From NCBI GenBank assembly GCA_001552765.1, contig KQ959474.1, positions 15,707-79,706 on the forward strand: 64,000 nucleotides of DNA, in the 5' to 3' direction. This document shows, piece after piece, positions 23,095 to 30,735 of this stretch; positions within the stretch are counted from its first letter, which is position 1, and each line of letters begins with the position of its first letter. This stretch comes from Bacteroidales bacterium KA00344. Its GTDB lineage: Bacteria > Bacteroidota > Bacteroidia > Bacteroidales > Bacteroidaceae. The position numbers and the translations under genes are program-made. The notes under the pieces are model-generated. The model was not told where the DNA came from and made no database searches. It saw only the letters and a list, made by a program, of their open reading frames with translations.

Positions 23095-23787
23095 ATGGAT
23101 AATAAAAAACAAACAGTGAGTGTGCTGTTTATGCTTGTCAGCATACTCTTTTGCGTTTGCCTCATTGCAGCAAACGTTCTCGAAACAAAGCAGATAGCAG
23201 TAGGTCCTATTAGTCTTACAGGTGGTCTCATCGTGTTCCCCGTGTCTTACATCATCAACGATTGTGTGTGCGAGGTGTGGGGGTATCGCAAGGCGCGTCT
23301 GCTCATTTGGGTGGGTTTTGCCATGAATTTCTTCTTCGTGGCCATGGGAGCCATCTGTGACCTTATTCCTGGAGCTGACTATTGGAACAACGATGAGGGC
23401 TTTCATGCCATCTTTGGGTTGGCTCCACGCATCGCGTTGGCATCGTTTGCGGCATTCGTTGTCGGCAGTTTTGTTAATGCCTATGTGATGAGTCGTATGA
23501 AGATACGAGACGGTGGCAAGCGCTTTTCCGCCCGTGCCATATTGAGTACGATAGCCGGCGAGACGTGCGACTCGGTCATTTTCTTCCCCCTGGCTTTAGC
23601 CGGGGTTGTGCCTACAGAAGAGCTTCCCTGGCTCATGTTATGGCAGGTGGTGCTCAAGACCGTTTACGAGATTATCGCACTGCCGCTCACCATACGGCTG
23701 GTCAGGGCCTTGAAGCGCCATGAAGGAGAGGATGTCTACGATAATGATGTGGACTATAGTGTATGGAAAATATTTAGCATTGGATAG
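23095..23787 (+). CDS. Queuosine precursor transporter (QPTR, YhhQ family)
   Basis: Inner-membrane importer for preQ0/preQ1, 230 residues with about six helices. Family landmarks are ANVLETKQIAVGPISLTGG, PVSYIINDCVCEVWGYRKAR and STIAGETCDSVIFFP. The adjacent queF gene (3 bp away), which reduces preQ0 to preQ1, supports the specificity. Together they would let the cell use imported preQ0; queC, queD and queE are not in the window, so whether de novo synthesis exists cannot be told. Confidence 0.92.
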   Translation: MDNKKQTVSVLFMLVSILFCVCLIAANVLETKQIAVGPISLTGGLIVFPVSYIINDCVCEVWGYRKARLLIWVGFAMNFFFVAMGAICDLIPGADYWNNDEGFHAIFGLAPRIALASFAAFVVGSFVNAYVMSRMKIRDGGKRFSARAILSTIAGETCDSVIFFPLALAGVVPTEELPWLMLWQVVLKTVYEIIALPLTIRLVRALKRHEGEDVYDNDVDYSVWKIFSIG

Positions 23788-23790
23788 AAT

Positions 23791-24261
23791 ATGACGGCAA
23801 ACAGAGAAAAAGAGGGTTTGAAATCGCTTGGTGCGAAGACCTGCTACAGCATGGATTATGCTCCTGAGGTGCTCGAAACATTTGTCAATAAGCATCCCGA
23901 TAACGATTACTGGGTGCAGTTCAACTGTCCTGAGTTCACCTCCCTTTGCCCCATTACGGGGCAGCCAGACTTCGCAGAAATCAAAATCAACTATGTACCG
24001 GCGGAACGTATGGTAGAAAGTAAGAGCTTGAAGCTTTATTTGTTCAGCTTCCGCAATCATGGCGACTTCCACGAAGACTGCGTGAACATCATCATGAAAG
24101 ACCTCATTAAGCTCATGCAGCCCAAATATATTGAGGTGGTGGGACTATTTACTCCGCGTGGCGGCATCAGTATTTATCCCTATGCCAACTATGGAATGCC
24201 GGGTACCAAATACGAGAAGATGGCCGAAACCAGATTTTTCAATCACGAGATACGGGGATAA
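23791..24261 (+). CDS. queF: NADPH-dependent 7-cyano-7-deazaguanine reductase QueF (type I)
   Basis: Reduces the nitrile of preQ0 to the amine of preQ1 for queuosine in tRNA. At 156 residues it is the short unimodular type. The catalytic Cys lies in [17 protein letters not shown], followed by the substrate-binding [21 protein letters not shown] with the catalytic Glu-Ser-Lys-Ser (QueF) motif and FHE. It begins 3 bp after the transporter gene. The next hairpin terminates transcription. Confidence 0.96.
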
Positions 24262-25387: not shown

Positions 25388-27160
25388 ATGAGTAAGAAAA
25401 TTCAGTTTAGTCTCATTTATAGAGATATGTGGCAGAGTTCGGGTAAGTTCCAGCCACGTAAGGATCAGCTGGAGCGTATAGCTCCAATCATTATTGAAAT
25501 GGGATGTTTTTCCCGTGTAGAAACCAATGGTGGTGCTTTTGAGCAAGTACAACTTCTCGCTGGAGAGAATCCAAACGAAGCAGTGCGTGCCTTCTGTAAG
25601 CCTTTCAACGAGGCCGGCATCAAGACTCACATGCTCGATCGAGGTTTGAATGCCCTCCGTATGTATCCCGTGCCTGATGATGTTCGTGCCTTGATGTACA
25701 AAGTAAAACATGCACAGGGCGTGGATATCCCTCGTATTTTTGATGGTTTGAACGATATCCGCAACATCGCGCCCTCTATCAAGTGGGCTAAGGAAGCTGG
25801 GATGACGCCTCAGGGAACGTTGTGCATCACCACATCTCCCGTTCACACACTCGATTACTACGAGCATCTGGCCGATCAGGAAATTGCTGCCGGTGCGGAA
25901 GAAATATGTTTGAAGGATATGGCCGGCATCGGACAGCCGGCGTTCTTGGGACAGCTGACGAAGCGCATCAAGGACAAACATCCCGATATTATCATCGAAT
26001 ATCACGGTCATTCAGGCCCGGGTCTCAGTATGGCTTCTATGCTTGAGGTGTGTCGCAACGGTGCCGACATTATCGATACGGCCATTGAGCCGCTGTCGTG
26101 GGGTAAGGTTCATCCTGATATTATCTCTGTACAAAGTATGCTGAAGAACGCCGGTTTCGACGTTCCGGAAATCAATATGAGTGCCTATATGAAGGCTCGT
26201 GCCATGACTCAAGAGTTTATCGACGAGTGGTTAGGCTACTTTATCAATCCCGGCAACAAGATTATGAGTTCGCTGCTGTTGGGTTGTGGCCTGCCGGGAG
26301 GCATGATGGGATCGATGATGTCAGACCTCAGTGGGATTCATGGCACTATCAACAACTTGCGTAAGAAGAAGGACGAGCCCGAATTGAGCGTAGACGACCT
26401 ACTGATTAAGCTGTTTGATGAAGTTGCTTACGTTTGGCCTCGTGTGGGTTATCCTCCATTGGTTACGCCGTTTTCACAATACACCAAGAACATTGCGCTC
26501 TTCAATCTGCTCACAATGGAGCAGGGCAAGGGACGCTATGCCATGATGGACGATGCCATGTGGGGTATGATTCTTGGTAAGAGCGGTAAGGTGCCCGGCA
26601 AGATTGATGATGAATTGGTAGAGCTTGCCAAGAAGAAAGGCTTCGAGTTTACCGACGCTGACCCTCACACGCTACTTCCAAATGCCCTTGAAGACTTCAA
26701 GAAGGAGATGGACGAGAACGGTTGGGATTACGGTCAGGACAACGAGGAATTGTGGGAGTTGGCCATGCACCCGGAACAATATCGCAACTATAAGAGTGGG
26801 CAGGCTAAGAAAAATATGCTCGCCGACTTGCAAAAGGCCAAGGATGCAAAACTTGGCGGCACAATGACACCGGAACAGGTTGCTGAGTTTAAGCATGCCA
26901 AGGCTGATGCCATTGTGGCTCCGGTCAGGGGTCAGGTGTTCTGGGAATTCCAGGGCGATGGCGAGGCAGCTCCGGCTGTAGAGCCCTATATTGGCAAGAG
27001 CTACAAGGAAGGTGATACATTCTGTTATATCCAGGCACCTTGGGGTGAGTTTGTAGAAGTCAAGGCCAATCTTGGCGGCAAACTCGTGGAAATTAATGCC
27101 AAGCAAGGCTCAAAGGTTCAGAAAGGCAACGTGATAGCCTATATTGAAAGAGAGCATTAA
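25388..27160 (+). CDS. Pyruvate carboxylase/oxaloacetate decarboxylase-type carboxyltransferase with C-terminal biotinyl-like domain
   Basis: A 590-residue protein of the OadA/PycB family. The carboxyltransferase barrel is at about 1-300: YRDMWQSSGKF at the start, the catalytic lysine near 175 in CLKDMAGIG, and the metal-binding H-x-H near 205-207 in YHGHSGPG. The PYC-OADA domain follows to about 480. The last 85 residues (APVRGQVFWEF, SYKEGDTFCYIQAPWGEFVEVKANLGGKLVEI) fold like a biotinyl domain, but the AMKM-type biotinylation motif is absent: the equivalent turn reads QAPWGEFVEV, with no lysine. So the protein probably does not carry its own biotin and either works with a separate biotin carrier or has another role. 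It is monocistronic. Confidence 0.88.
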   Translation: MSKKIQFSLIYRDMWQSSGKFQPRKDQLERIAPIIIEMGCFSRVETNGGAFEQVQLLAGENPNEAVRAFCKPFNEAGIKTHMLDRGLNALRMYPVPDDVRALMYKVKHAQGVDIPRIFDGLNDIRNIAPSIKWAKEAGMTPQGTLCITTSPVHTLDYYEHLADQEIAAGAEEICLKDMAGIGQPAFLGQLTKRIKDKHPDIIIEYHGHSGPGLSMASMLEVCRNGADIIDTAIEPLSWGKVHPDIISVQSMLKNAGFDVPEINMSAYMKARAMTQEFIDEWLGYFINPGNKIMSSLLLGCGLPGGMMGSMMSDLSGIHGTINNLRKKKDEPELSVDDLLIKLFDEVAYVWPRVGYPPLVTPFSQYTKNIALFNLLTMEQGKGRYAMMDDAMWGMILGKSGKVPGKIDDELVELAKKKGFEFTDADPHTLLPNALEDFKKEMDENGWDYGQDNEELWELAMHPEQYRNYKSGQAKKNMLADLQKAKDAKLGGTMTPEQVAEFKHAKADAIVAPVRGQVFWEFQGDGEAAPAVEPYIGKSYKEGDTFCYIQAPWGEFVEVKANLGGKLVEINAKQGSKVQKGNVIAYIEREH

Positions 27161-27207: not shown

Positions 27208-27243
27208 TTCGCCCTCTTCTCCAACAGTGGAGGAGAGGGCGAA
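27208..27243 (+). terminator. Hairpin between the carboxyltransferase and HD genes
   Basis: Arms 27208-27222 and 27229-27243 pair over 15 bp with one wobble (TTCGCCCTCTTCTCC), 6-nt loop. No U-run follows and the HD start codon is 14 bp later, so it could attenuate rather than fully terminate, or affect translation start. Confidence 0.55.
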
Positions 27244-27256
27244 TGTGTTTCAGACT

Positions 27257-27817
27257 ATGAAAGAAAAGAGAAATACGAAGTGGGTAATGCAGCTTATTGA
27301 CAAGTATTATCCGGAAGATAACGAACTGAAGCGTATCTTGATGGTGCATAGCAAGGACGTTACTGCACGGGCTTTGCAGATATGCGACGCTCACCCCGAA
27401 CTCCATCTCGACCGTCAGTTTGTGGAAGAGGCTGCCATGTTGCACGATATTGGTATTTTCAAATGTGATGCACCGGGAATACAATGCTTTGGTCGGGAGC
27501 CGTATCTTCTGCATGGACGCATAGGAGCAGATTTGCTCAGGGCAGAGGGCTATCCGCGTCATGCTCGGGTGTGCGAGCGGCATACGGGTGCCGGCTTGAG
27601 CAAGGAGGCCATCATAAAGGGAAACTTGCCGTTGCCCGCAGAAGATTTCCTGCCCGAAACTTTGGAAGAGAAGGTGATATGTTATGCGGATAAATTTTAC
27701 AGCAAGTCCAAGTTGGAGCAGGTGAAGTCCATGGAGATGGCAGAACGGAGCCTGGCGCGTTTTGGAGAGGAGGGATTGAACCGCTTCCGGGTGTGGGAAA
27801 AGATGTTTGAGCGGTAA
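27257..27817 (+). CDS. HD domain-containing phosphohydrolase
   Basis: A 186-residue HD-superfamily protein. The start chosen is ATG 27257 (MKEKRNTKWVMQLIDKYYPE); an in-frame GTG at 27227 is inside a hairpin. Metal ligands follow the H...HD...D order: His in MVHSKDVTARAL, His-Asp in AMLHDIGIF, further His in RHTGAGLSKEA and Asp in ICYADKFYSK. The pattern resembles small YedJ/YqeK-type hydrolases acting on nucleotides, but the substrate cannot be deduced. It lies between the carboxyltransferase and lptD without obvious functional link. Confidence 0.88.
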   Translation: MKEKRNTKWVMQLIDKYYPEDNELKRILMVHSKDVTARALQICDAHPELHLDRQFVEEAAMLHDIGIFKCDAPGIQCFGREPYLLHGRIGADLLRAEGYPRHARVCERHTGAGLSKEAIIKGNLPLPAEDFLPETLEEKVICYADKFYSKSKLEQVKSMEMAERSLARFGEEGLNRFRVWEKMFER

Positions 27818-27860
27818 CGTTAAAATTGCGAAAAGGCTCGGTTTTTAATCTTTAATTAAG

Positions 27861-27868
27861 TACTTTTG
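27861..27868 (+). promoter_or_regulatory. -7 box TACTTTTG almost touching the lptD start codon
   Basis: TACTTTTG matches TAnnTTTG and ends only 8 bp before ATG 27877. Transcription would then begin within a few bases of the start codon, giving a leaderless or nearly leaderless mRNA. Confidence 0.55.
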
Positions 27869-27876
27869 CACTCCAA

Positions 27877-30735
27877 ATGAGGACTAAGTTTTCCATCGTA
27901 TTTTTGGTTTTTGCCATAGTCTTTGCTGTGGCCGATAGCAATGTGCTACTCTATCCGAGAAAGAGTCATGTTGTCGTGGACAAAGATACGCTGAAAGCAA
28001 AGGTTTTATCGAACAAAGTAGTTTCGGATAAGGATTCCCTCGATATACCTTCCGAAAAAGGTACACTATCAGACACCACCAAGATGGATTCGCTCGAACT
28101 CGCCATCTATCATCACAACAAGATGATAGATGATTCCATCCGTCTGGACTCCCTGAACAGACAAAAGAAAAACGGTATTGATGCTCCTGTGAAGTATCAG
28201 GCCCAAGACTCGTTGGTCTATGTGGCCGGCACAAACGCGGCTTATCTTTATGGCTCGTCGGTGGTAGACTATGAGAATATGAATCTTAAGAGCGATAAGA
28301 TTTATATGAGTTTGGATAGCAGTATGGTACATGCTGCCGGCAGTGCGGACTCTACAGAGAAGACAGGCCTTAGGGGACGACCGGTATTCAAAATGGGGCA
28401 GGACCAATATGACAGTGATACCATTGCATTTAACTTTAAGACTAAGAAGGGACTTATACAAAATACGTATACCCAGCAAGAGGATGGATTTCTGACGAGT
28501 GAGATCTCCAAGCGCAATGACAATGGGGACATTTTTCTGGCTCATGGGCGTTATACCACCTGCGACCGCGAACATCCTGACTTTTATATTTCGCTTTCGA
28601 GAGCAAAGGTACGTCCCGGTAAGGATGTGGTTTTCGGACCGGCTCATCTTGTGGTGGCCGATGTGCCATTGCCTTTGGCCATTCCCTACGGTTTCTTTCC
28701 ATTCACCAAAAGCTATTCCAGCGGATTTATCATGCCAACATACGGCGATGAAAACAGTCGAGGCTTCTATCTGCGTGATGGAGGATATTATTTTGCAATG
28801 AGTGACAAATGGGACTTAAAGTTGCTTGGTGAAATATATACCAAAGGCTCATGGGGTATTTCTGCTGCCAGCAACTATCGCAAACGCTACAGATATAACG
28901 GCTCTTTTTTTGTAAGTTTTCAGAATACGAAGACCGGCGACAAGGGTATGCCCGACTATCAGCAGCAAAAGAGTTTCAAGTTGCAATGGAGTCATCGGCA
29001 GGATCCTAAGGCCAACCCGTTCAGCTCTTTGTCGGCAAGCGTAAACTTTGCGACGCAGAGCTATGAGCGCAACAACCTGACGAGTATGTACAACCCACAG
29101 GCCATGACACAGTCCACGCGTACGTCTTCGGTGAGCTGGAGTACTACATTTTCAAGTATTGGAATGTCGCTCAGCTCGTCGGCAAACCTTTCACAGAATA
29201 TGCGCGACTCAAGTATAGCCATGACTTTACCCGACTTGAATATCTCGATCAGTCGATTTTACCCTTTTCGTCGTAAACACATGGTGGGTGAGCAGCGTTG
29301 GTACGAGAAAATCTCAATGAGTTATACCGGACAGTTGAGCAATTCGATCAACACTAAGGAAGACCAACTGCTCCATGCTAACCTTATTAAGGATTGGCGC
29401 AACGGAATGCAACATTACATTCCTATCAATGCTAACTTCACGTTGTTTAATTATCTCAATGTTACGCCTTCATTCAGTTTCACCGACCGCATGACGGCCA
29501 GCAAGATCATGAGAGCATGGGATGAGGCCAGTCAAACGGAAGTTGCGGATACAACTTATGGCTTTCATAACATTTACAATTGGAATATGAGCGTGTCGGC
29601 CAGCACAAAGCTGTATGGCTTTTACGTGCCAAGTCGCAAGATTTTCGGTGATAAGATTCAGGCCGTTCGCCATGTCTTCACACCGCAGGTGAGTTTCAGT
29701 TATGCGCCCGATTTTGGCTCGTCGCGCTATGGTTATTATGAAACCTATCAGAAAACCGACGCCAACGGAAATGTGTCGCTGGTTGAATACTCCCCCTATT
29801 CACAGGGGTTGTACGGTGTTCCGGGCAAAGGGCGTACGGGGAGTATATCGTGGGATGTGAGCAACAACATAGAGATGAAAGTCAAGAGCGACAAAGACTC
29901 TACCGGCTTCAAGAAGATAAGTATTATTGATGAGCTTGGTGCTTCGATGTCGTATAATATGGCAGCAGACAAGCATCCGCTGAGCGACTTGTCCATGCGT
30001 ATTCGATTGAAATGGTGGAAGAATTATACATTCAATATGAATGCGGTGTTTGCTACGTATGCCTACGAACTCGACGAGGATGGGAAACCGTATGTAGGAG
30101 AACACACCGAATGGGGAATGGGACGCTTTGGGCGCTTTCAGGGCATGTCTCAGAACTTCTCTTTCACGCTGAATCCTGAAAAAATCAGGAAATGGTTTGG
30201 TGGGGGAGATGACAGGGATGATGGAAAGCATCGGGATGATGAGGAAGGTATTGACGTAGATCGCGAAAGCAACGTCGACGACGAAATGATCAAAGCACAG
30301 CGCGGTGCAAAGAAGAAACGCGAAGGTGGCAAAGCCAGCACAGATGAGGATGGTTATATGACTTTTTCCATGCCCTGGTCGCTGACCTTTGGTTATGGTA
30401 TTACGATGCGCGAGAATACCGGTGGAAAGTTCAATAAAAAGACGATGCGCTATCCTTATAAGTTTACGCAGACGATGAATGTAAGTGGCAATTTGCGTAT
30501 CAGTGATGGTTGGAATATCAGCTTCTCCAGCGGATACGACTTTGAAAACAAGAAGATGTCTATGACCACAGCATCGTTGCAGCGCGATCTCCACTGCTTC
30601 AACATGAGTTGCTCAGTGGTGCTGGCACCCTATACAAGCTATAACTTCTCTTTCCGTGCCAATGCCGCGACATTGACCGATGCATTGAAATACGATAAGC
30701 GAAGCGGTTATAGCAACGCCGTACAGTGGTATTGA
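27877..30735 (+). CDS. LPS-assembly protein LptD-like outer-membrane protein
   Basis: A 952-residue Bacteroidetes LptD (OstA/Imp) homologue, the outer-membrane part of the LPS export bridge. After a signal peptide (MRTKFSIVFLVFAIVFAVAD) and a linker, the OstA-like beta-jellyroll runs about 100-250 (NMNLKSDKIYMSLDSSMVHAAG, YDSDTIAFNFKTKKGLIQ, DGFLTSEISKRNDNG, HGRYTTCDREHPDFYI). The barrel follows from VPLPLAIPYGFFPFTKSYSSG to the end, which closes with NAVQWY. A strongly charged insertion (GGGDDRDDGKHRDDEE) sits near 770-815, probably an extracellular loop. The cysteine pairs of E. coli LptD are not conserved. The start fits the promoter box at 27861. Confidence 0.9.
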   Translation: MRTKFSIVFLVFAIVFAVADSNVLLYPRKSHVVVDKDTLKAKVLSNKVVSDKDSLDIPSEKGTLSDTTKMDSLELAIYHHNKMIDDSIRLDSLNRQKKNGIDAPVKYQAQDSLVYVAGTNAAYLYGSSVVDYENMNLKSDKIYMSLDSSMVHAAGSADSTEKTGLRGRPVFKMGQDQYDSDTIAFNFKTKKGLIQNTYTQQEDGFLTSEISKRNDNGDIFLAHGRYTTCDREHPDFYISLSRAKVRPGKDVVFGPAHLVVADVPLPLAIPYGFFPFTKSYSSGFIMPTYGDENSRGFYLRDGGYYFAMSDKWDLKLLGEIYTKGSWGISAASNYRKRYRYNGSFFVSFQNTKTGDKGMPDYQQQKSFKLQWSHRQDPKANPFSSLSASVNFATQSYERNNLTSMYNPQAMTQSTRTSSVSWSTTFSSIGMSLSSSANLSQNMRDSSIAMTLPDLNISISRFYPFRRKHMVGEQRWYEKISMSYTGQLSNSINTKEDQLLHANLIKDWRNGMQHYIPINANFTLFNYLNVTPSFSFTDRMTASKIMRAWDEASQTEVADTTYGFHNIYNWNMSVSASTKLYGFYVPSRKIFGDKIQAVRHVFTPQVSFSYAPDFGSSRYGYYETYQKTDANGNVSLVEYSPYSQGLYGVPGKGRTGSISWDVSNNIEMKVKSDKDSTGFKKISIIDELGASMSYNMAADKHPLSDLSMRIRLKWWKNYTFNMNAVFATYAYELDEDGKPYVGEHTEWGMGRFGRFQGMSQNFSFTLNPEKIRKWFGGGDDRDDGKHRDDEEGIDVDRESNVDDEMIKAQRGAKKKREGGKASTDEDGYMTFSMPWSLTFGYGITMRENTGGKFNKKTMRYPYKFTQTMNVSGNLRISDGWNISFSSGYDFENKKMSMTTASLQRDLHCFNMSCSVVLAPYTSYNFSFRANAATLTDALKYDKRSGYSNAVQWY

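Follow-up and report, generated by a model that had tools for sequence, protein, structure and literature searches.

The OadA-type gene and its catalytic barrel

Within the window (the whole 64,000-nucleotide stretch analyzed here), a single uninterrupted frame encodes a 590-aa carboxyltransferase of the OadA/PycB type whose C-terminal biotinyl domain lacks the lysine to which biotin is attached. Its features are given below, with residue conservation counted in a family alignment of 174 sequences.

25388..27160, forward strand: lysine-less OadA/PycB-type carboxyltransferase gene (PYC_OADA and HMGL-like matches)
25421..25438, forward strand: RDMWQS (residues 12-17), metal and substrate motif with Asp13; Asp13 and Gln16 invariant
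25913..25915, forward strand: Lys176 of LKDMAG, by homology the carbamylated metal-ligand lysine; invariant, and aligned with LKDMA of 1rqb
26003..26011, forward strand: His206-Gly-His208 (YHGHS), metal ligands by homology; His206 in 174/174, His208 in 168/174 (Gln in the other 6)
26465..26467, forward strand: Thr360 of PPLVTP, by homology the catalytic threonine (carboxybiotin proton shuttle); invariant
26903..27151, forward strand: degenerate biotinyl domain (residues 506-588); Biotin_lipoyl below cut-off, with assignment by AF2 and Foldseek to 1bdo, and under purifying selection
27032..27052, forward strand: QAPWGEF hairpin, with Trp552 (27041-27043) at the place of the biotinyl lysine in EAMKT/EAMKM relatives

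The flanking genes are an ordinary queuosine pair (23095-24261; a Vut_1-family, probable queuosine precursor, transporter followed directly by a QueF-like reductase) and, downstream of the OadA-type gene (27227-30735), an HD-domain protein and an LptD-type outer-membrane protein that bear no relation to biotin enzymes.

Family models for OadA and PycB match the protein, every one of them under its curated cut-off: the best full-length model is pyruvate carboxylase subunit B (NF006761, 252 bits vs. a cut-off of 402), and the OadA model TIGR01108 reaches 233.5 of 756.5 bits. We liken the protein to the 5S subunit of Propionibacterium transcarboxylase in its working, yet by its score against PRK12330 (182 vs. 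827 bits) it falls outside the curated 5S family. The nearest PDB sequences are Propionibacterium 5S (1rqb), Vibrio cholerae OadA (2nx9) and pyruvate carboxylase B (PC beta; 5ks8), and the full-length predicted model, which is of only fair quality (mean pLDDT 72), has a fold closest to 5ks8 (the best Foldseek match), then to 5S and OadA.

The initial annotation held that the barrel keeps its catalytic residues, and this is borne out: RDMWQS, LKDMAG and YHGHS are all found, and PLVTP, with Thr360, is intact as well. By sequence, alignment and fold, the features of a 5S-type barrel are present (i.e., metal ligands and the catalytic threonine, with no biotin of its own), and the invariance of Asp13, Gln16, Lys176, His206 and Thr360 suggests a barrel capable of catalysis.

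A conserved biotinyl domain without its lysine

The C-terminal domain (about residues 506-588) contains no AMKM; as first noted from the sequence, QAPWGEF stands in its place, and in the alignment Trp552 occupies the column of the biotinyl lysine of EAMKT/EAMKV relatives. The domain is otherwise well formed, as had also been claimed: modeled alone with AF2 it has a mean pLDDT of 86.6, and its best PDB match is the Escherichia coli biotin carrier BCCP (1bdo; TM 0.74/0.80). The alignment of orthologs across Bacteroidales that had been proposed as a check places Trp at the lysine column in every one of 81 Prevotellaceae sequences, drawn from independent genomes, which rules out a sequencing error. 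In 45 lysine-less proteins from other Bacteroidales, this column most often holds Tyr (23 sequences), with Trp in 4, Leu in 4 and Phe in 3. The lysine is thus missing across much of Bacteroidales, where an aromatic residue mostly replaces it.

This domain evolves faster than the core, yet purifying selection acts on it (median dN/dS 0.08 vs. 0.054 for the core, values that are meaningful only to an order of magnitude with dS near saturation). That selection, together with the folded model, rules out a decaying remnant, and because the lysine-less domain is so constrained, it appears to be retained for something besides carrying biotin.

Partner genes in the same genome

The genome from which the window comes is a draft assembly of 142 contigs, estimated to be 99.91% complete. 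Profile searches of it returned no match to biotin carboxylase (PF02785) and none to the membrane decarboxylase subunit OadB (PF03977), together with exactly one carboxyltransferase (PF01039), exactly one Biotin_lipoyl carrier (at E≤1e-5) and exactly one OadA-type enzyme. The carboxyltransferase and the carrier lie together elsewhere in the genome (G000:C85; locus L241), separated by a 49-aa ORF:

G000:C85:82689-84158: acyl-CoA carboxyltransferase; matches transcarboxylase 12S (1on3, 1.7e-171), with PCC beta scoring better
L241:8614-8763: OadG-like 49-aa tail ORF, a C-terminal OadG tail without membrane helix
L241:8770-9204: separate biotin carrier of 145 aa with an intact EAMKM; matches transcarboxylase 1.3S (1dcz)

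Genomes with OadB carry a helix-bearing OadG form of 118-128 aa. In genomes without OadB, the OadG-like subunit is cut to a soluble tail of 49-85 aa (L241:8614-8763; L254:6395-6619; L257:7466-7720), and absence of the helix is as expected because OadB is gone. An ORF of 50 aa at the same place in Xylanibacter ruminicola KHP1 was reported as hypothetical (PMC11575231).

Since there is neither a biotin carboxylase nor a membrane decarboxylase, the carrier and carboxyltransferase need another carboxyl donor or acceptor, and on this gene inventory no candidate other than the lysine-less OadA was found. FabD is present in this genome (and in 37/38 genomes tested), and malonyl-CoA is therefore needed where acetyl-CoA carboxylase is missing.

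Partner genes across relatives

None of the 23 named Prevotellaceae genomes with the lysine-less gene has a biotin carboxylase, and OadB occurs in only 3 of them; it is also absent from two further genomes, G492 and G366. A membrane decarboxylase partner, which had been proposed as something to look for, is thus missing from the genome itself and from 20/23 named Prevotellaceae. The suggestion that biotin comes from a separate carrier has fared better, given that the sole intact EAMKM carrier lies beside the only acyl-CoA carboxyltransferase, and that G366, which lacks both OadB and biotin carboxylase, holds lysine-less OadA, carboxyltransferase, a 75-aa OadG-like tail and carrier in one operon. 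The carrier lies within 2 kb of the carboxyltransferase in 30 of 31 checked genomes with lysine-less OadA, the carrier row of the 31st not being listed. G366 is the exception in its linkage of OadA: in most genomes the lysine-less OadA gene stands as an orphan, and in Prevotellaceae it is unlinked to the carboxyltransferase/carrier locus, with no carrier gene found near it at 80 loci (within up to 8 kb).

Across the order, strict complementarity with biotin carboxylase was considered and rejected as only partial. The lysine-less form is the only form in 51 of 296 Bacteroidales genomes, 34 without and 17 with biotin carboxylase, and a further 65/296 have neither biotin carboxylase nor the OadA family studied here; of 33 of these that were tested, 24 have another OadA-type enzyme, in some cases without a biotin domain. 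A second, distant OadA family (DLTLRDGQQS type) occurs in Bacteroidales without biotin carboxylase, with members that lack the biotin domain (L270, L272, L281, L283-L287, L290) and two, L267 and L268, that have an OadG-like tail and an adjacent carrier gene.

One core, four architectures

Four architectures share one common core across Bacteroidales, and the lysine state follows the partner, in that lysine-bearing relatives lie beside OadB or beside methylcrotonyl-CoA carboxylase (MCC) beta. In the first lysine-bearing group (K28; motif EAMKT/EAMKV/ESMKT), OadB is directly adjacent in 28/28, which marks these proteins, by gene context, as ordinary sodium-pump decarboxylases. The second (K14) joins the core to a BT-like stretch of ~100 aa and a BCCP with AMKM/SMKM, and adjoins an MCC-beta-type carboxyltransferase in 12/14, the remaining two lying at contig ends. 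At the K14 loci read, a crotonase of the methylglutaconyl-CoA-hydratase type stands between the K14 gene and MCC beta, and two loci also have acyl-CoA dehydrogenase and HMG-CoA lyase (one of them with 3-oxoacid CoA-transferase). From their gene content these loci look like leucine-degradation operons with an OadA core in the position that biotin carboxylase has in the MCC alpha chain, and the fused protein probably acts as an oxaloacetate:3-methylcrotonyl-CoA transcarboxylase that needs no biotin carboxylase. Operons of this type, with the fused core beside MCC beta, are found at L171:5419-12281 and also at L150, L159, L164, L166, L169, L170, L178-L181 and L190.

The third architecture is the lysine-less form, and in the fourth (L137 and L148) the biotinyl domain is gone, a short tail like the end of OadG standing in its place. 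This bears on the initial annotation's guess that the domain had become a docking module: the dead domain is conserved, and the OadG-like tail that these two relatives carry instead is of the assembly kind, which leaves the guess plausible. In the core tree, K28 and K14 each form one group; the root is uncertain (rooting by the second OadA family gave branches too long), so gain and loss of the lysine are indistinguishable, and counts by tree are independent of the root.

A probable transcarboxylase with its carrier in trans

From the observed lysine loss, catalytic site, folds, partner gene inventory and gene neighborhoods, we infer that this protein probably belongs to a soluble multi-gene transcarboxylase complex (5S-like OadA with 12S-like and 1.3S-like partners) that uses its carrier in trans, with oxaloacetate + acyl-CoA (acetyl-CoA) -> pyruvate + malonyl-CoA as the likeliest net reaction. 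The protein would supply the 2-oxo-acid half, the metal site of its TIM barrel exchanging carboxyl between oxaloacetate/pyruvate and N-carboxybiotin, with the biotin borne by the 145-aa carrier from G000:C85 and not by its own C-terminal domain. Oxaloacetate would be decarboxylated at the OadA metal site and its carboxyl passed to carrier biotin; the carrier would then swing to the acyl-CoA carboxyltransferase, where acetyl-CoA (or propionyl-CoA) would be carboxylated, so that CO2 is shuttled between both enzymes as in Propionibacterium 5S + 1.3S + 12S. The dead biotinyl domain is probably an assembly or docking module, an aromatic residue filling the hairpin tip. Net conversion of oxaloacetate and acetyl-CoA to pyruvate and malonyl-CoA would stand in for the missing ATP-dependent acetyl-CoA carboxylase. 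We favor the direction toward acyl-CoA because the same core must feed carboxyl into acyl-CoA in the leucine operons. The acyl product or substrate could be methylmalonyl-CoA instead of malonyl-CoA. OadA/MmdA systems can run in reverse, and 12S accepts acetyl-CoA.

A broader proposition, which we advance more tentatively and hold to be possible rather than probable, has two parts stated jointly: that Prevotella and many other Bacteroidales lack acetyl-CoA carboxylase and obtain malonyl-CoA for fatty-acid synthesis via an oxaloacetate:acetyl-CoA transcarboxylase in which lysine-less OadA and an MmdA-like carboxyltransferase share a single carrier, and that Bacteroidales repeatedly swapped biotin carboxylase for the OadA core, the fused leucine-degradation protein being one instance. 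A literature search, with most subscription journals outside its reach, found no paper proposing a transcarboxylase in Prevotella or Bacteroidales or describing the lysine-less domain.

The same three parts could instead catalyze the Propionibacterium reaction (methylmalonyl-CoA + pyruvate -> propionyl-CoA + oxaloacetate) in succinate/propionate metabolism, which we regard as unlikely. It would suit a carboxyltransferase that scores best against PCC beta and 12S, and in X. ruminicola mmdA-mmdC are located with an epimerase (PMC11575231). However, no epimerase is among the ORFs listed beside this genome's own carboxyltransferase, the group's propionate formers have the OadB that this genome lacks, and the acyl-CoA feeding required of the core in the leucine operons is the opposite direction.

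Lower still is the probability of a Na+-pumping oxaloacetate decarboxylase put together in trans, with lysine-less OadA as its alpha subunit beside a separate carrier, OadB and OadG. Many lysine-less genomes do have one OadB beside a carrier, and the mmdB-mmdC-oadG locus of X. ruminicola KHP1 does not include an alpha subunit (PMC11575231), but the absences of OadB reported above, from the genome itself, most named Prevotellaceae, G492 and G366, count against such a pump, as does the finding that the lysine is kept in precisely the clade linked to OadB (28/28). For this genome the pump is already refuted, barring an OadB in an assembly gap.

It is more doubtful again that the protein has given up biotin, its C-terminal domain being a structural leftover and its barrel working unaided, either as a soluble oxaloacetate decarboxylase or as some other lyase of the aldolase type. 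The lost lysine, the orphan gene in most genomes and the two relatives without the domain would fit. Against this, the catalytic threonine of carboxybiotin-dependent enzymes, Thr360, does not vary across the family, one relative shares an operon with carboxyltransferase and carrier genes, the fused relatives have a carrier again, and the genome's own carrier and carboxyltransferase would be left without a carboxyl donor. Finally, a B subunit of an ATP-dependent pyruvate carboxylase with biotin carboxylase and carrier as separate genes is hardly credible here, for although NF006761 is the best full-length family model and 17/51 lysine-less-only genomes have a biotin carboxylase, the other 34, the 23 named relatives and this genome have none.

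If the malonyl-CoA reading is true, bacteria abundant in the gut and mouth avoid the ATP-dependent carboxylase with which most bacteria begin fatty-acid synthesis, with oxaloacetate as payment; a missing step in Prevotella metabolic models would be filled, and Prevotella-type species may be indifferent to biotin carboxylase inhibitors. It would also provide a clean case of a cofactor-carrying domain kept after loss of the cofactor.

Comparison with known systems

The closest likeness is to the Propionibacterium methylmalonyl-CoA:pyruvate transcarboxylase (EC 2.1.3.1), whose 5S subunit (1rqb) shares the barrel, the metal site and the predicted role of a pyruvate/oxaloacetate-type carboxyltransferase without its own biotin, and for which 12S- and 1.3S-type partners exist in the genome studied here. 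Unlike 5S, to which it is ~28% identical, the present protein has a lysine-less biotinyl domain, and the genes of the proposed system are unlinked. A gut-genome survey found transcarboxylase only in Propionibacterium and Corynebacterium, and the system proposed here, if real, would extend transcarboxylases beyond the Actinobacteria that it reported (PMC9403272).

With Na+-translocating OadA (2nx9), the protein shares the domain order (barrel, PYC_OADA, biotinyl) and has close Bacteroidales paralogs of this kind beside OadB; it differs in having no biotin lysine, no OadB in its genome and an OadG shrunk to a soluble tail. The B subunit of two-subunit pyruvate carboxylase (5ks8) likewise has the same domain order and is the best Foldseek match of the full model, whereas here both the biotin lysine and a biotin carboxylase partner are missing. 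A fused ACC-carboxyltransferase/BCCP/PC-carboxyltransferase of Giardia is called a "transcarboxylase" (Jordan et al., 2003, as cited in passages of PMC3199775 and PMC8700996). In Giardia this trio of activities without biotin carboxylase resides on one eukaryotic polypeptide, whereas here the same trio would be encoded by three separate bacterial genes.
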